This document shows, piece by piece, positions 8,195 to 62,460 of a stretch of DNA of 64,000 bases. The DNA comes from Phocaeicola barnesiae DSM 18169 = JCM 13652 (GTDB lineage Bacteria > Bacteroidota > Bacteroidia > Bacteroidales > Bacteroidaceae), in contig NZ_KB894655.1 of NCBI RefSeq assembly GCF_000374585.1, positions 1 through 64,000 of the forward strand, written 5' to 3'. The notes beneath the pieces were generated by a model, which saw nothing but the letters and a program-made list of their open reading frames with translations, did no database searches and was not told where the DNA came from. Every line of letters starts with the position of its first letter. Position 1 is the first letter of the stretch. The translations under genes were made by a program, and so were the position numbers.

Positions 8195-9712
8195 ATGAAA
8201 ATATTAAGCTGCAAACAACAACGCGAAGCTGATGCCTATACCATCAGCCATGAATCCATACTATCCATCAACCTGATGGAAAAAGCGGCCAGCCTGATTA
8301 CTGACGCCATCTGCCGGCGTTGGGACAAAGCCCGCCGCATGATTGTCTTTGCCGGTGCCGGAAACAACGGCGGCGACGCCCTGGCTGTGGCCCGCATGCT
8401 GTTCCTGAAACATTATCCGGTGGAAGTGGTCTTCTTCAACGTGACCGGAAAAATCTCCGAAGAATGTCTTACCAACATCCGCCGGCTGAAAGAATGCGGT
8501 TTCGCCAACTTTACGGAAGTGAGCTCCCAGTTCGACCCGCCGAAACTGACGCGCAACGACATCGTGATAGACGGCCTCTTCGGAGCCGGACTGAACAAGC
8601 CTCTGAGCGGCGGCTTCGCAGCAGTCGTACAATATATCAACGCGTCGCAGTCGACCGTGGTCTCCATCGACACCCCCTCGGGACTGATGGGCGAAGACAA
8701 TACCTACAACGTACGCCAGAACATCATCCAGGCCGACCTGACCCTGACCATCCAGCTTCCGAAGCTGTCCTTCCTCTTCGCCGAGAACGAAGAATACGTG
8801 GGCGAATGGGAAGTGCTGGACATCGGCACCAGCCAGGAATTCATGAAGAACGTCACGACTCCCTACTACATCACCGAAGAGGCGGAAGTACGGAGCCTTA
8901 TCCGTCCCTATAAGAAATTCGCCCACAAGGGCATGCGCGGACACGGACTCCTCATCGCCGGTTCATACGGCATGGGTGGAGCCGCAGTCATGGCAGCCCA
9001 GGCCTGCATGCGCTCCGGTATCGGACGCCTGACCGTCCACACACCTATCTGCAACCACAACCTGGTTCAGACCCTGGTTCCGCAGGCCACGGTGGAAGAC
9101 GACCTGCACGAACGGTTCTTTGCCGAACCGACCGACCTGGACAACTACCAGGCCATAGCCATCGGTCCGGGACTGGGACAGGAGGAAATCACCGCCAAGA
9201 CCACCATCGAACAGCTGGACAGCTGCTATGTACCGACGGTACTGGACGCCGACGCCCTGAACAACCTCAGCGTATACCGGAACTTCCTGAACCGCGTCCC
9301 GAAACAAGCCATCCTGACCCCACACGTCAAGGAGCTGGAACGCCTGGTAGGCCGGTGCAGCAACAGCTACGAACGCCTGAGCAAGGCCAAGGAACTGTCT
9401 TCCTACCTGCAGTGCTACATCGTACTGAAAGGAGCATGGACTACCATCATTACACCGGAAGGAAACTGTTACTTCAATCCGACCGGCAATCCGGGCATGG
9501 CCACCGGAGGAAGCGGAGATGTGCTGACCGGTATCCTGCTGGCCCTGCTGGCCCAAGGCTATCCGCAGGAAGCAGCCTGCCGCCTGGGAGTCTATGTACA
9601 CGGACTGGCAGGCGACATCGCCCGCGAACGGCAGGGAGTCATCAGCATGAACGCCGCCGACATCATCGAGGCTCTGCCGGAAGCCTGGAAAAAACTAACC
9701 GAAACGAAATAA
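8195..9712 (+). CDS. nnr: Bifunctional NAD(P)H-hydrate epimerase / ADP-dependent dehydratase
   Basis: Repairs hydrated NADH and NADPH. 505 residues with two domains: an N-terminal YjeF epimerase (about 1-215, AGAGNNGGDALAVARML and DGLFGAGLNKPLSG) and a C-terminal ribokinase-like dehydratase (about 230-505, GSYGMGGAAVMAAQA, LTPHVKELERL and GGSGDVLTGILLALLAQGY). Length matches the fused bacterial form. It is divergent from hpt and followed after 10 bp by the DUF4831 gene, so both are probably on one transcript. Confidence 0.96.
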   Translation: MKILSCKQQREADAYTISHESILSINLMEKAASLITDAICRRWDKARRMIVFAGAGNNGGDALAVARMLFLKHYPVEVVFFNVTGKISEECLTNIRRLKECGFANFTEVSSQFDPPKLTRNDIVIDGLFGAGLNKPLSGGFAAVVQYINASQSTVVSIDTPSGLMGEDNTYNVRQNIIQADLTLTIQLPKLSFLFAENEEYVGEWEVLDIGTSQEFMKNVTTPYYITEEAEVRSLIRPYKKFAHKGMRGHGLLIAGSYGMGGAAVMAAQACMRSGIGRLTVHTPICNHNLVQTLVPQATVEDDLHERFFAEPTDLDNYQAIAIGPGLGQEEITAKTTIEQLDSCYVPTVLDADALNNLSVYRNFLNRVPKQAILTPHVKELERLVGRCSNSYERLSKAKELSSYLQCYIVLKGAWTTIITPEGNCYFNPTGNPGMATGGSGDVLTGILLALLAQGYPQEAACRLGVYVHGLAGDIARERQGVISMNAADIIEALPEAWKKLTETK

Positions 9713-56645: not shown

Positions 56646-56718
56646 GGTGCCATAGCTCAGTTGGTAGAGCAAAGGACTGAAAATCCTTGTGTCCCCGGTT
56701 CGATTCCTGGTGGCACCA
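56646..56718 (+). tRNA. tRNA-Phe (anticodon GAA)
   Basis: Acceptor GGTGCCA pairs with TGGCACC, D arm GCTC...GAGC, anticodon loop CTGAAAA (GAA), T arm CCCGG-TTCGATT-CCTGG, discriminator A. Terminator at 56743-56779. The likely attachment site of the integrated element that follows. Confidence 0.95.
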
Positions 56719-56742
56719 CTTTGAAGAAAAGCAATTAGTAGT

Positions 56743-56779
56743 AAACTCCTGATTTCCAAACGAAATCGGGAGTTTTTGT
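56743..56779 (+). terminator. Terminator after tRNA-Phe
   Basis: AAACTCCTGATTT (56743-56755) and AAATCGGGAGTTT (56763-56775), one wobble, T run after. May belong to the host or the element's left end. Confidence 0.85.
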
Positions 56780-56931
56780 TTTCCCGCAGGACGCAAAAAA
56801 GTGCGGAATATGACCGCTTCCGGTGTTCCAAAAGGTGGAGCGGAAAAGGCGGAGCGAAATTCTCCACCGAACAGGATTCTTTTTCGCTGATTTGCAATGT
56901 TTTGCGTATCAAGAAAACGTGGATGGTTTCC

Positions 56932-56940
56932 TACTTTTGT
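56932..56940 (+). promoter_or_regulatory. Promoter -7 box of the integrase gene
   Basis: TACTTTTGT 22 bp before the chosen start. It lies inside the longer reading frame, excluding it. Confidence 0.5.
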
Positions 56941-56961
56941 CCAACTAAAAATTGTAGGAAA

Positions 56962-58194
56962 ATGAAAAGAAACTCGTTCAATGTGCTTTTCTTCATCAAG
57001 AAAGCCAAACTGCTGAAAAACGGAGAAGCTTCCGTTTGTATGCGCATTACCGTGAATGGTGCGCGAGTGGAAACCAACATCCGCAAGAGCATTGACCCAG
57101 CATCGTGGAATCAGGCGAAGGAATGTGTCCGTGGAAAAAGCCGCAAGGCATGCGACCTGAACGCCTATATCGAAAATGCGAAAATCAAGCTCCACCAAAT
57201 CTTTAATGAATTGGAGGAACAGCGACAGCCCATCACCGCCCGACTGTTGCAGGAAAAGTTCTTCGGACAAGACAAGGAGCCGGAAGAAGTCCGCACGCTC
57301 ATCGGCACCATACAGGAACATAACGACCAATGTCGTGCTCTCGTGGGGAAAGACTATGCGCTGATTACTGTTCGCCGTTATGAAAGCTGCAAACGCTATC
57401 TCGCAGAACTTATCAAAAAGAAGCATGGGAAAGAGGATTTGCCACTAACGGAAGTCAACGGGGAGTTGGTTCGTGCCTTTGAGTTCTACCTCAAAACGGA
57501 AAAGTCCTGCCAGCAGAACACCGTTATCCGTTACATGAAGTGCCTGAAAAAGATAACCAATCTCGCTTTGGCAAACGAATGGATAAGCAAAGACCCTTTC
57601 GTGGGCATCAAGTTTCATGAGAAAGAGGTTATCCGCGAGTTTCTGACAATGGATGAACTGCTCACCATCTACCACAAGGACTTTCCGTTGGAGCGCATCC
57701 GAATCGTGCGTGATGTCTTCATCTTTGCAGCAATGACGGGGTTGGCGTTCATTGATGTGCAGCAACTGGCACCCGAACATATTGTAGAAGATGCAAACGG
57801 CAACCTGTGGATTCGCAAGCCACGGCAAAAGACGAAGAATATGTGCAACATCCCTTTGCTTGACATTCCTTTGGAAATTCTCCGCAAGTATGCCGACCAT
57901 CCGATGTGCCAAAAGAAAAAGGTATTGCTGCCTGTTCCCTGCAACCAGAAGATGAACAGCTATTTGAAAGAGATAGCTGATTTATGCCTGATAAAGAAGA
58001 ATTTAACCACTCATGTTGCGCGGCACTCGTATGCAACCTCGGTCTGCCTCGCCAACGGTGTGAGTATCGAGAATGTGGCAAAGATGCTCGGTCACTCCAA
58101 TATAAAAATGACACAACACTATGCGCGTGTGCTGGATAGTTCCATTCTGCGTGATATGACCAATGTACGAAATGTACTTTCTAATGCGATGTAA
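56962..58194 (+). CDS. int: Tyrosine recombinase / integrase
   Basis: 410 residues from ATG 56962. An arm-binding N-terminal domain (about 1-100), a SAM-like core-binding domain (115-210) and the catalytic domain (225-400). Catalytic residues visible: Lys at about 290-292, His351-x-x-Arg354 (HVARHSYAT), His378 (LGHSN) and Tyr387 (QHYARV). The first arginine of the usual set is replaced by Ala262 in TGLAFIDV, a substitution also found in Bacteroidetes relatives such as the CTnDOT integrase, which has Ser there. It integrates and, with accessory factors, excises the element. Confidence 0.95.
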   Translation: MKRNSFNVLFFIKKAKLLKNGEASVCMRITVNGARVETNIRKSIDPASWNQAKECVRGKSRKACDLNAYIENAKIKLHQIFNELEEQRQPITARLLQEKFFGQDKEPEEVRTLIGTIQEHNDQCRALVGKDYALITVRRYESCKRYLAELIKKKHGKEDLPLTEVNGELVRAFEFYLKTEKSCQQNTVIRYMKCLKKITNLALANEWISKDPFVGIKFHEKEVIREFLTMDELLTIYHKDFPLERIRIVRDVFIFAAMTGLAFIDVQQLAPEHIVEDANGNLWIRKPRQKTKNMCNIPLLDIPLEILRKYADHPMCQKKKVLLPVPCNQKMNSYLKEIADLCLIKKNLTTHVARHSYATSVCLANGVSIENVAKMLGHSNIKMTQHYARVLDSSILRDMTNVRNVLSNAM

Positions 58195-58670: not shown

Positions 58671-58973
58671 TTACGTTTCCAGACGATAGGCGTTTCGATA
58701 CCCGCTCATCACCATCCGTTCGATATCCGATTCCTTATACAGAATTTTTCCACCTAATTGGTAGTAGGACACCATCCCGTTGTTGCGGTAGTCCTGCAAG
58801 GTGCGTCGGCTCACCTTGAGCCATGCCGACACTTCCTTGTCCGTCAGGAACTGTTCGTTACTTGGCGAAGCCTTATGGCTCGCGTCCATTCTTTCGATGC
58901 CTTCAAGCAGGGCATCCAGTTGTCCGATGAAGCCGACCTCCAGTTCACGGTCGGCAAGAATCAAGTCGTTCAT
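58671..58973 (-). CDS. Excisionase-like helix-turn-helix protein 1
   Basis: 100 residues. The C-terminal half (FLTDKEVSAWLKVSRRTLQDYRNNGMVSYYQLGGKILYKESDIERM) is the MerR/excisionase-type winged helix used by Bacteroides transposon accessory proteins. A coiled N-terminus (ALLEGIERMD) may dimerise. Downstream of the paralogous gene at 59015 and in the same direction. Role in excision or regulation is inferred from place and fold. Confidence 0.82.
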   Translation of the reverse strand: MNDLILADRELEVGFIGQLDALLEGIERMDASHKASPSNEQFLTDKEVSAWLKVSRRTLQDYRNNGMVSYYQLGGKILYKESDIERMVMSGYRNAYRLET

Positions 58974-59014: not shown

Positions 59015-59332
59015 TTAAATGCTACAGCCACGATAGGCTGCATCCTTACGCCTGTCCTCCACGAGCCGGACGATGCGCTGCACATCCTCCGGCTTGTAGA
59101 AAATCTTATGCCCGATTTGCGAGTAAGCCAGCGTGCCGTTGTCGCGGAACGTCTGCAAGGTGCGCGGACTGATGCGCAACTGTTGGCAAACTTCTTGGTT
59201 GTCCATCCAACGGCTGAGCCGTTTTCCTTCCCTCTTACGAAGGATTTCATTCACCCGGTCGGACAGGCGGTTGAGCTTGCCGACCATTTCATCATACTTG
59301 CTTTTTGAAATGATTACAATTTCCATACTCAT
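59015..59332 (-). CDS. Excisionase-like helix-turn-helix protein 2
   Basis: 105 residues from ATG 59332 (MSMEIVIIS). A coiled stretch (KLNRLSDRVNEILRKREGK) precedes a helix-turn-helix MDNQEVCQQLRISPRTLQTFRDNGTL and IGHKIFYKPEDVQRIVRL. Clear paralogue of the 58671 protein (R(T)LQ...RDNG and KI(F/L)YK motif in both). A promoter-like box and a phased array of TGGC boxes lie upstream. ATG 59326 is a close alternative. Confidence 0.85.
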   Translation of the reverse strand: MSMEIVIISKSKYDEMVGKLNRLSDRVNEILRKREGKRLSRWMDNQEVCQQLRISPRTLQTFRDNGTLAYSQIGHKIFYKPEDVQRIVRLVEDRRKDAAYRGCSI

Positions 59333-59362
59333 TATATTTACTGATTGTTCTTCTTTTTGCCT

Positions 59363-59399
59363 GCAAAGTAAAGCCGTTGCTTGTATAAAACAATGGCTT
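59363..59399 (-). promoter_or_regulatory. Promoter and operator-like inverted repeat of the excisionase-like genes
   Basis: Minus-strand -7-like TACTTTGC (59363-59370), one base shorter than consensus. Upstream lies AAGCCGTTG (59371-59379) and CAATGGCTT (59391-59399), 9-bp arms with one mismatch, placed where the -33 region should be. Confidence 0.45.
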
Positions 59400-59409
59400 T
59401 GCAATCTGT

Positions 59410-59443
59410 TGGCAGCTTGTGGCAGCAAGTGGCCGGGAGTGGC
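59410..59443. repeat. Phased TGGC array A
   Basis: TGGC at 59410, 59420, 59430 and 59440, exactly 10 bp apart, all in one orientation. Directly upstream of the excisionase-like promoter. Confidence 0.6.
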
Positions 59444-59533
59444 GTTATCCACCGAACCCGTAATGTCTGTTCCAAGCGTCCGTGATGCAAAGAAAAGTGA
59501 AGTCTGGCATAATCCGACCACTTCACATCTGTG

Positions 59534-59579
59534 TGGCAGCATTTGGCGTCGATGTGGTAGCCTGTGGCGTTCTTCTGGT
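59534..59579. repeat. Phased TGGC/TGGT array B
   Basis: TGGC/TGGT at 59534, 59544, 59555, 59565 and 59576: spacings 10, 11, 10, 11, which keep the boxes on one face of the helix. Same orientation as array A, about 90 bp away. Confidence 0.6.
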
Positions 59580-59870
59580 TCATATACCATCCGAAAATAT
59601 ATTCTTCAGGTTTTCTAAAAGCCATATCCTTAAATCCGCCCCGACCGCTCCAATTAAGCCCTTAAAATTTCCAATACCCGTTTCATGTACAATGGCAAAA
59701 CGGTGCAGCCTGAACCGTTCCGGCAATGCGTAAAGTGCAAAACCGTACATTGTTGCCACAGCCAATCCATTCGTTTGACTGCTTGCAATACAGACATTTC
59801 CTTTGCGACCGATAATCGGTCAAATGTGCGCACAACGACCTACATTGTTAAACATTTAATTCAAACAAGT
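59580..59870. other. Non-coding remainder of the 538-bp gap before the DUF3408 gene
   Basis: No gene with a recognisable product. The gap 59333-59870 holds the two phased arrays and the promoter described separately. The plus strand before 59871 lacks a clean -7 box. Confidence 0.4.
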
Positions 59871-60311
59871 ATGAAGAAAAATTTAAGCTGCCAAAGTATG
59901 GATGCAACATTACAGGATTTTTTAGGCAACAAGCCGAGTATGGAAACACTGAAGCCCGACACACAATCTGCCGGCACAAAGGAACAGCCGGAAAAGACAA
60001 GCGAGGTTGTACTGGAACAGGCTGGTGAAGCCGTGCCGGAACAAGTGGATGAAACTCCGCAGGTGGTACGCCGCATCAGCGGCAAGCAGCGACGGGCATC
60101 GTTGGAGGAATACAAGGAATCTTTTCTCACCGTTCCGTCCATCGAAGACCGCAAGCCCGTGTTCCTCAGCCGTAGCACGCGCGACGCCCTTGACCGCATC
60201 GTCCGCATGTTCGGCGAGCGCAGGATGAGTGTGTCGGGACTGGTGGAGAACATCACCCGGCAGCACCTTGCCACCTACGGGGAAGACATCGAGGCATGGC
60301 GTAAACTCTGA
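59871..60311 (+). CDS. DUF3408 family protein
   Basis: 146 residues. The acidic, low-complexity N-terminus (PEQVDETPQVVRR) is followed by a conserved C-terminus (KPVFLSRSTRDALDRIVRMFGERRMSVSGLVENITRQHLATYGEDIEAWRK), the DUF3408 region of Bacteroides mobile elements, which resembles a ribbon-helix-helix and lies near mob genes. Possibly a DNA-binding mobilization helper. Confidence 0.82.
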   Translation: MKKNLSCQSMDATLQDFLGNKPSMETLKPDTQSAGTKEQPEKTSEVVLEQAGEAVPEQVDETPQVVRRISGKQRRASLEEYKESFLTVPSIEDRKPVFLSRSTRDALDRIVRMFGERRMSVSGLVENITRQHLATYGEDIEAWRKL

Positions 60312-60323
60312 AAATTAAGAAGT

Positions 60324-60438
60324 GGATTGACGGGGCGCAATTCAGAGTTACTCTGAACCAATCCAACGGAGTTTTGAGGGGAGCAAGTTTGTGTTTCGGG
60401 CATACCGAAACCGCCTGCTCCCACTCATGAACTCCGTA
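60324..60438. repeat. Nested inverted repeats upstream of the mob genes, candidate oriT
   Basis: First set: TGGATTG (60324-60330) / CAATCCA (60360-60366) enclosing CAGAGT-T-ACTCTG (60344-60356). Second set: ACGGAGTT (60367-60374) / AACTCCGT (60431-60438), GAG (60377-60379) / CTC (60425-60427), GGGAGCA (60380-60386) / TGCTCCC (60417-60423) and GTTTCGG (60394-60400) / CCGAAAC (60406-60412) with a 5-base loop. Position before the mob genes fits an origin of transfer, but the nic site was not identified. A structured RNA is the alternative. Confidence 0.6.
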
Positions 60439-60493
60439 GAGAGCCGCATCCCGTTGGTCTATTATGTATGTACACTTTAATCATTAGAAATCA

Positions 60494-60859
60494 ATGGAAC
60501 AGAAACGGAAAATCAATAACAGGAACAAGGGAGGCCGCCCTAAGAAGGGCGCGGCTGACAAGCTGAAATACCGCCTAACGGTGAAGATGGCGACATCGGA
60601 CTACTACACGCTGAAAGGCAAGGCACGGAGCGCAGGCATATCCGCCGGGGAGTTCCTGCGCCGTTGCATGAGGGACGGGCGGGTGAAGGAGCGACTCACG
60701 CCGGAACACACTGGTTACGTCCGCCAACTTTGCGGCATGGCGAACAACCTGAACCAGCTTGCGCACAAGGCGAACGCCGCAGGCTTCGTTACGGTAAGGA
60801 TGGAATGCCGCATACTCGTGGCACGTATCGAAGAACTGTTGAATTTAATCCTCTTATGA
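60494..60859 (+). CDS. MobC-like mobilization accessory protein
   Basis: 121 residues. Lys/Arg-rich N-terminus (NRNKGGRPKKGAADKLKYRL), then a central VKMATSDYYTLKGKARSAGISAGEFLRRC and a C-terminus with LCGMANNLNQLAHKANAAG as in plasmid MobC proteins. Helps the relaxase melt oriT. 10 bp before the relaxase gene. Confidence 0.87.
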   Translation: MEQKRKINNRNKGGRPKKGAADKLKYRLTVKMATSDYYTLKGKARSAGISAGEFLRRCMRDGRVKERLTPEHTGYVRQLCGMANNLNQLAHKANAAGFVTVRMECRILVARIEELLNLILL

Positions 60860-60868
60860 CAGCCGGAT

Positions 60869-61807
60869 ATGATAGCTAAAATCGTAAAGGGAAGCAGTTT
60901 CAGGGGTGTGGTAAACTACATTCTTGACAAGAAAAAGGACGCTAAAATCCTTGTCTGTGACGGGCTGTTTGCCGAGGACAAGGACACGATAGCCATGAGC
61001 TTCGAGGCGCAATCAAAGATGAATCCAAAGCTTACGAAGCCTGTCGGACACATTTCGTTGGCTTTTCATAAGGAAGACGAACACCGCCTGACCGACCGCG
61101 CAATGGCAGGAATAGCGTTGGAATATCTGACGGAAATGGGAATAACCGACACGCAGATTCTCATTGTGCGCCACTTCGACAAGGAGCATCCGCACGTGCA
61201 TATAGCCTTCAACCGAATCGCCAATAACGGCAGGACAATCAGCGACCGCAACGAGCGGATACGCAGCGCACGCATCTGCAAGGAACTGACGAAGAAATAT
61301 AACCTGTACTTCGCCAGCGGCAAGGAACAGGTGAAACGCCATCGCCTGAAAGAGCCGGACAAGACCAAGTACGGGCTTTACTCCATCCTTAAATCGGAGG
61401 TTTCGAGGTGCGGAAACTGGCGGCAGTTAGCCGCTAATTTGGAGAAGCAAGGCGTGGATATGCAGTTCAAGTACAAGGGCAAGTCGGACGAGGTACAGGG
61501 TGTAGTTTTCACCATGAACGGCTATTCGTTCAGCGGTTCCAAGATTGACAGGCGGTTCAGCTATTCCAAGATAGATGCTGCATTGGAACGTAACAGACAT
61601 ACCGAGCGAATGGAAATGCAGCCGCCCTCGTGTCGTGAAGAACAGTCCACGTTCCCAACCGAACCAAGGGGCAACGATGATTTGTACAGCGGTTCGATTG
61701 GTCTTTTCATGCCGGACAACGCGGACGGACAGGCTGAGGAAAACCGTTTCGAGGAAGAATTAAAACGCAGGAACAAGAAAAAGAAACAACGTAAAATAGG
61801 ATTCTAA
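60869..61807 (+). CDS. mobA: Relaxase / mobilization nuclease (MOBP-type)
   Basis: 312 residues. Tyr17 in VVNYILDKK is the candidate nicking Tyr, and HFDKEHPHVHIAFNR (102-116) carries the metal-binding His cluster. SISLAF-like HISLAFHKEDEH lies between. The C-terminus is a basic tail (KRRNKKKKQRK). Starts transfer by nicking oriT. No helicase or primase domain attached. Confidence 0.9.
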   Translation: MIAKIVKGSSFRGVVNYILDKKKDAKILVCDGLFAEDKDTIAMSFEAQSKMNPKLTKPVGHISLAFHKEDEHRLTDRAMAGIALEYLTEMGITDTQILIVRHFDKEHPHVHIAFNRIANNGRTISDRNERIRSARICKELTKKYNLYFASGKEQVKRHRLKEPDKTKYGLYSILKSEVSRCGNWRQLAANLEKQGVDMQFKYKGKSDEVQGVVFTMNGYSFSGSKIDRRFSYSKIDAALERNRHTERMEMQPPSCREEQSTFPTEPRGNDDLYSGSIGLFMPDNADGQAEENRFEEELKRRNKKKKQRKIGF

Positions 61808-61809
61808 AA

Positions 61810-62460
61810 ATGGACAATAATGAAGTTTATGCGCTCTTTGAGGACATCAAGAATGGCCTCAAGGGTATCAACGGGAAGTTGGAGAACGCTCCAAAAGTAG
61901 CAAATGCCCAGTCAGATGGACAGCCTCCGGCGGTGGACTTGAACCCCATAAAGGAGCTGTTCGAGAATTCCGCAAAAGAGCATCAAGCACAGATCAATGC
62001 CATGCTGACCAAGTTTGGGGAGGCAGAAGTTCACGCATCGAATAGGATTCTGCACTTGTTGCGTGACTTGAAAGAATCGTTTGTCAAAAGTTCGGAAGAA
62101 CGGAAAGATGAGCCGCAGGAGCATATCCACCGTCACAGTTTTGATATCCGGTCAAGCAAGGTGTTTTCTCTTTTGGTCGGCATGGGTATCGTGTGCAGCC
62201 TTTCCGTCTGGGGTAACATCGAGCTTTGGAAATCCAAGCGTCAGTATGCGGACGATGCGTTGAAGTTCCGTGTCATCCGCTCATGGGGAGGTTGCAACGC
62301 CAATCATATCCTTTGGTTGAATGACGTGTTCGACATCCACCGCAACGAGGAAGCCATCGAATGGATACGGCAGGAGGCTGACGGCTACGACAAAGGGTTA
62401 AAGACCTTGTCGGACAGTCTGATGCAGGAGAAGTTGAAAGTGGAACAAATTAAAAAGTAA
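61810..62460 (+). CDS. Membrane protein of unknown function in the mob unit
   Basis: 216 residues, 2 bp after the relaxase. A coiled, polar N-terminus (about 1-115) precedes a membrane segment (about 120-140, VFSLLVGMGIVCSLSVWGNI), and a C-terminal part with FRVIRSWGGCNANHILWLND and EEAIEWIRQEAD. No named domain. The same layout recurs behind relaxases in Bacteroides mobilizable elements to my recollection, so a role in coupling to a transfer pore is possible but unproven. Confidence 0.75.
   Translation: MDNNEVYALFEDIKNGLKGINGKLENAPKVANAQSDGQPPAVDLNPIKELFENSAKEHQAQINAMLTKFGEAEVHASNRILHLLRDLKESFVKSSEERKDEPQEHIHRHSFDIRSSKVFSLLVGMGIVCSLSVWGNIELWKSKRQYADDALKFRVIRSWGGCNANHILWLNDVFDIHRNEEAIEWIRQEADGYDKGLKTLSDSLMQEKLKVEQIKK

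Follow-up and report, generated by a model that had tools for sequence, protein, structure and literature searches.

The 182-bp gap between the stop codon of a DUF3408 gene (60311) and the start of mobC (60494) very probably serves as the oriT, or origin of transfer, for a 17.2-kb integrative and mobilizable element inserted in tRNA-Phe, with a predicted nic site on the plus strand between 60453 and 60454. This reading, drawn from sequence comparison, builds on elements that are observed directly: a motif whose conservation, strand and position are established, a covarying core hairpin, and the relaxase, mobC, integrase and att repeats that accompany them. Coordinates refer to the window, the whole stretch of 64,000 nucleotides that was analysed. 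A preliminary description had offered two interpretations of the nested inverted repeats in the gap, an oriT or a structured RNA. The first is retained here, in that a homologous mobC adjoins, the core covaries and a motif resembling a MOBP nick site occurs on one strand; the regulatory RNA is not.

Organization of the island

The element is bounded by two copies of a 29-bp repeat, which define an island of about 17.2 kb. The features that concern mobility are as follows.

56701-56729: attL, 29-bp direct repeat that extends across the 3' end of tRNA-Phe (56646-56719)
56776-58194, plus strand: tyrosine integrase (Pfam Phage_integrase, Arm-DNA-bind_5 and Phage_int_SAM_5)
58671-58973, minus strand: HTH_17 excisionase-like gene (profile search)
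59015-59590, minus strand: second HTH_17 excisionase-like gene (profile search)
59685-60311, plus strand: DUF3408 gene, 5' of the predicted oriT; tblastn homology in relatives spans about 59870-60311
60494-60859, plus strand: mobC, encoding a NikA-like/MobC relaxosome protein (Pfam NikA-like 52.9 bits, MobC 38.7 bits, both above cut-off)
60869-61807, plus strand: MOBP-type relaxase with a MobA/VirD2-like nuclease domain (Pfam Relaxase 126.9 bits)
61810-62460, plus strand: 216-aa gene of unassigned function, 3' of the relaxase in many relatives
73859-73887, same contig beyond the window: attR, second repeat copy (perfect 29-bp match)

The relaxase is related to the Bacteroid_MobB family, its NF041325 score of 126.5 bits lying under the cut-off of 400, and its translation contains a tyrosine and a PHVH motif that we take to be relaxase motifs. 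As cargo the island has type I restriction-modification genes, a RhuM-Fic gene among them, together with AIPR, AlbA_2 and DUF2971 proteins. In locus L163 (399-4192), this type I system has the RhuM-Fic and AIPR genes sitting among hsdM, hsdS and hsdR. A Pfam search of 16 island proteins, small ORFs being left out, found no type IV secretion families. With an integrase and flanking att repeats, its own relaxase, a predicted oriT and no mating-pore genes found, the island has the layout, as read from its genes and repeats, of an integrative and mobilizable element. Helper elements may be present, since three ICE-type MobB relaxases scoring over the cut-off (C2, C9 and C14) are encoded elsewhere in the same genome.

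Folding and extent of the conserved unit

The preliminary description recognized a 43-base and a 72-base hairpin in the gap, and both are borne out by folding. As DNA, the 43-nt segment at 60324-60366 folds with -8.4 kcal/mol (z -3.32; 1 of 200 dinucleotide shuffles was as good) and the 72-nt segment at 60367-60438 with -21.6 kcal/mol and 28 pairs (z -6.73; none of 200 shuffles as good). Because both hairpins beat their shuffles, structure is present above chance. The unit conserved between clades spans approximately 60376-60463. Compared with the interval first reported, 60324-60438, it starts later on the left and reaches further on the right; that interval encloses the inner hairpin and stops just short of the predicted nick motif. 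Its layout consists of the hairpin GCAAG-N5-GTTTCGG/CCGAAAC-...-TGCTCC, a variable spacer and then CATCCCG^TTGGTC. The elements of the gap, all given on the plus strand, are:

60323-60338, plus strand: upstream arm TGGATTGACGGGGCGC, complementary to the nick region at 60446-60461 if G-T wobbles are allowed
60341-60357, plus strand: short palindrome TTCAGAGTTACTCTGAA (z -3.91), at the same offset in other clades
60376-60426, plus strand: predicted oriT core hairpin, GAGGGGAGCAAG-TTTGT-GTTTCGG-GCATA-CCGAAAC-CGCC-TGCTCCC-A-CTC, defined by conservation, covariation and DNA folding
60427-60446, plus strand: variable spacer from core to nick motif, with weak short inverted repeats (6 of 41 loci at p <= 0.05)
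60447-60459, plus strand: predicted nick region CATCCCG^TTGGTC, motif found in 100 of 100 mobC-linked loci and compared with the MOBP consensus given in PMC3772185

By eye, a small hairpin seemed to be a fixed feature of the spacer from core to nick, yet the count just given for the spacer led us to drop it. Likewise, the best short hairpin 5' of the core reaches p <= 0.05 in 5 of 41 loci, and only its fixed position stood out: a palindrome with a stem of at least 3 is centred at -31 in 15 of the 41 nonredundant loci, against a mean over centres of 0.63. This fixed-offset palindrome, at 60341-60357 in the window, is possibly the site of another protein.

Conservation and covariation of the core hairpin

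A protein search with MobC returned 433 relatives; the 80 best were retained on MobC similarity, with no other criterion. The core hairpin lies 5' of mobC in all 80 of these best 80 of 433, matching 23-32 of 32 as compared with 17-20 for shuffled sequence. Searching with the gap as query added 30 loci (201 genomes of the family, 21 with a match); these carry the core by construction, because gap similarity was the basis of their selection. Together the 110 loci comprise 100 with a MobC match starting 58-186 nt past the core start and 10 with neither mobC nor relaxase in the fetched stretch. The latter were excluded from all mobC-linked counts, and for statistics the 100 linked loci were thinned to 41 sharing less than 90% ungapped identity.

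Conservation among the 41 nonredundant loci peaks at GCAAG-N5-GTTT.GG, CCRAAAC and ATCCCGNNGGTC. Invariance is greatest in the GCAAG arm, and the sequence of the left arm is more conserved than pairing needs. Over the 16 core pairs, 93.6% of cells show standard pairing. Two-sided changes occur at five pairs in 27 cells, compared with 3.1 and 8.7 in shuffles. RNAalifold retained the inner seven pairs of the core alone, which counts against the oriT reading. The preliminary description had staked its proposal on covariation and on conservation beside homologous mobC genes, and the core supplies both. The same does not extend to the outer stems that it drew: in the alignment of the window's clade (15 distinct sequences after two duplicate rows were removed), no helix of the full nested structure shows a two-sided change, which speaks neither for nor against those stems. 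This includes the outer stem CGGAGTT/AACTCCG (60367-60373 and 60430-60436), which is confined to that clade. In the 43-nt hairpin, pairing of GGATTG with CAATCC is intact in 81% of cells, no better than shuffles.

The core was also recovered by DNA alone. Among 2.9 million IMG/VR viral contigs, the exact core pattern gave 11 matches. In ten of them mobC lies 112-186 nt beyond the start of the core and a nick motif 27-37 nt beyond the hairpin; the eleventh, on a 1-kb stretch, has no mobC match. With one mismatch allowed, the pattern occurs in 4 of 295 genomes of the class, with none for the reversed control. A combined hairpin-plus-motif pattern found 4 of 395 genomes, and it misses the window itself because the distance between hairpin and motif was limited to 36 nt. 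The core pattern recurs beside related genes across Bacteroidota. When loci are compared in pairs with homology extending rightward and a left break within 120 nt, 469 of 792 pairs break -5 to +14 nt from the core start. This clustering of left breaks at the core start suggests that oriT, mobC and relaxase behave as one cassette.

A MOBP-like motif and the predicted cut site

Between the hairpin and mobC, the motif [AC]TCC[CT]GNNGGTC is found in 100 of 100 mobC-linked loci; a stricter form occurs on the mobC strand in 97 of 100, for a shuffled expectation of 0.01. The published MOBP nick consensus is (C/T)ATCCTG(C/T), immediately preceded by an inverted repeat (PMC3772185). The window sequence, CATCCCGT, has one mismatch to ATCCTG. 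Nearly all loci read ATCCCG and not the published ATCCTG, which counts against the oriT reading; the exact ATCCTG is present in 2 of 100 loci. From the resemblance of CATCCCG-TTGGTC to the consensus and from the two relatives with ATCCTG, we infer that the plus strand would be cut between 60453 and 60454. As in a MOBP-type oriT, the inverted repeat lies 5' of the predicted nick on the same strand and a MOBP relaxase gene adjoins. In two loci, L009 and L082, tandem nick-like motifs, CTCCCGNNGGTCGC followed by ATCCCGTTGGTC, lie between core and mobC, as if, judging from the sequence, the nick had been duplicated and moved.

An oriT with the opposite polarity, nicked on the minus strand by the GCAAG arm (AAACTTGC on that strand) and with the plus-strand CATCCCG serving some other purpose, is improbable. 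The GCAAG arm is the most invariant element and, on the minus strand, is directly 3' of the hairpin, an arrangement like that of the RSF1010-type oriT. This arm is, however, paired into the hairpin, CATCCCG is just as invariant, and the nick-like motif is present on the opposite strand upstream in 0 of 100 mobC-linked loci.

Pairing outside the core and the RNA interpretation

The upstream arm at 60323-60338 pairs with the nick region better than shuffles do at the window locus (p 0.005) and in 9 of 9 nonredundant loci of its clade (p <= 0.02). Over the 41 loci, p <= 0.05 is reached in 14 with Watson-Crick pairs, in 15 with G-T pairs admitted and in 11 with A-C pairs admitted. The stem has zero two-sided changes within the window's clade. 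These comparisons are suggestive of a clade-specific pairing, which may act as a switch, concealing the nick on a single strand, or else be an accident of composition.

The same pairing is part of the case for a structured RNA leader, in which plus-strand hairpins on the mobC-relaxase transcript would control expression of mobC or the relaxase. As RNA the whole gap folds very stably (z -6.71) into one large structure in which the nick region pairs to 60323-60338 with many G-U pairs, and any mobC transcript begun upstream would contain it. In the clade, the stem between nick region and upstream arm has G-T in 72 cells and A-C in 18, a wobble surplus that transitions opposite G and T would produce, given how little the right arm of the outer stem varies; the lack of two-sided changes in this stem also weighs against an RNA. 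In the core the balance is reversed, with 24 A-C mispairs against 12 G-T, so that a plus-strand RNA is not suggested. A leader would leave unexplained why the left arm is conserved beyond its pairing and why 10 of 110 loci have cores without mobC. The gap has no Rfam match at the gathering score (the matches in the window are two tRNAs only), and a search for Bacteroides-type promoters gave no signal, with a mean best score of 7.4 as compared with 7.3 in shuffles. The regulatory RNA 5' of mobC put forward in the preliminary description is therefore regarded as very improbable, on the grounds of the Rfam result, of G-T mispairs that do not exceed A-C in the core stems, and of the orphan cores.

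Least probable of all is a core that acts mainly as a repressor site autoregulating the mobC-relaxase operon, with the nick elsewhere or independent of the core: the window protein has NikA-like/MobC domains, and MobC of RA3 (IncU), according to PMC4175270, represses its own mobC-nic operon via a palindrome near oriT that is dispensable for transfer, but such an operator leaves unexplained both the MOBP-like motif in 100 of 100 mobC-linked loci and the like layout beside ICE-type MobB relaxases. The operator and oriT roles can be compatible.

Cores without mobC and mobC without the core

Two sets of loci count against the oriT reading. The first comprises the 10 of 110 loci with a core and without mobC, nine of which also have no nick motif. 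The second is represented by plasmid pBUN2 (L183), whose MobC, aligned from residue 20 onward at 58% identity, and relaxase (64.5%) are related to those of the island; the core is absent upstream of its mobC and from the whole record. A further 22 plasmid records from Bacteroidales (H3-H24) with a related MobC-relaxase pair match the query at the coordinates of pBUN2. Plasmids of the pBUN2 type may carry a cassette that has been truncated on the left.

Loci in which the core has other neighbors show two arrangements. At L015, L017, L019, L020, L124 (8813 onward) and L125, a distance of 13-20 bp separates the core from the end of a preceding MOBV (Mob_Pre) relaxase gene or of what remains of one, and several of these loci cease to be homologous to one another 39-54 nt beyond the start of the core, close to a nick-like CCCG. 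At L022, L023, L025 and L123 (core near 8915, minus strand), the core lies between HTH_17 genes and TetR-ABC cargo, the TetR start being 145 nt past the core start, with mobC and the nick motif absent. Integrases lie beyond the HTH genes at L123; L025 and L123 are one place, in the window's own genome. In three genomes the core divides an HTH/integrase-side module from TetR-ABC cargo. That the oriT core is a portable module, captured by other elements without mobC or its relaxase, is unlikely, if less so than the alternatives above. If true, it would fit cargo exchange or trans-mobilization via relaxase-mediated recombination at the nick.

Proposed transfer pathway and significance

On the model of MOBP plasmids, transfer would begin with excision of the island as a circle by its integrase and excisionase-like proteins. 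The NikA-like MobC and the relaxase would then assemble on 60376-60426, where the near-invariant arm GCAAG-N5-GTTTYGG is the likely recognition sequence. The relaxase is predicted to cut the plus strand at CATCCCG^TTGGTC (60453/60454) and to remain on the new 5' end, and the strand could be exported by the coupling protein and type IV secretion channel of a resident conjugative element, a presumed helper. Once in the recipient, the 3' end would be marked for rejoining by the hairpin that lies 5' of the nick.

The analysis yields a concrete and testable prediction of where a relaxase family, found repeatedly on islands and plasmids of Bacteroidota, would cut. PLSDB types related plasmid records as non-mobilizable in 24 of 24 cases in one search and 35 of 40 in another, suggesting that the pair of motifs could help to find mobilizable islands missed by present tools.

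Comparison with known oriT systems

Among titles and the beginnings of abstracts, with most subscription literature (including the nick mapping of Tn4399 and CTn341) outside this scope, we recognized no prior description of this oriT family. The predicted oriT is thus a sequence type for which we found no description, with a layout related to that of ICE-type MobB elements. The layout is retained in 13 plasmid records with a distant MobC (30-39% identity), which were taken with short flanks; the mobC start was placed from annotation in nine and by hand in L196, L198, L205 and L208. By eye, a GC[AG]AG arm is present in 12 of 13, and CTCCCGNNGGTC is present in 7 of 13. Three of the 13 are typed MOBP by PLSDB.

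A looser form, GCAAG...CTTGC...CTCCRAAGTCG, occurs in 20 of 23 ICE-type Bacteroid_MobB loci (of 24 over the cut-off, one had no locus) and in 1 of 114 controls; the three MobB loci outside the pattern count against the oriT reading. From the family name, we take these loci to be of the CTnDOT/CTn341 type. Like the window, they have a GCAAG arm and one or more hairpins, together with a CTTGC arm and a CTCC-RAAGTCG motif. The hairpin and putative nick sequences differ (CTCCGAAGTCG compared with CATCCCGTTGGTC). For CTn341, a figure legend of PMC5729914 names a conserved oriT, an inverted repeat and a nick site.

The MOBP oriT sequences of RP4 and Helicobacter pylori tfs4, as presented in PMC3772185, likewise have an inverted repeat 5' of the nick core and lie 5' of the relaxase gene. 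Their ATCCTG is one base removed from the window motif, and the distance from hairpin to nick is longer in the window (36 nt); the relatives with the shortest such distances are L167 (7 nt) and L107 (11 nt). An informal look found no likeness between the RP4/tfs4 recognition sequences and the window. The mobC-nic region of IncU plasmid RA3, going by its description in PMC4175270, shares with the window the order oriT, mobC, relaxase and several inverted repeats around the nick; RA3 is conjugative, whereas the island is without detected secretion genes. Comparable in kind, by description, are the Bacteroides elements NBU1, NBU2, Tn4399 and Tn4555, which are listed in PMC5704250 as integrative and mobilizable elements with a MobP relaxase, helped by CTnDOT, CTnERL or CTn341, and of which NBU2 resides, like the island, at a tRNA site.
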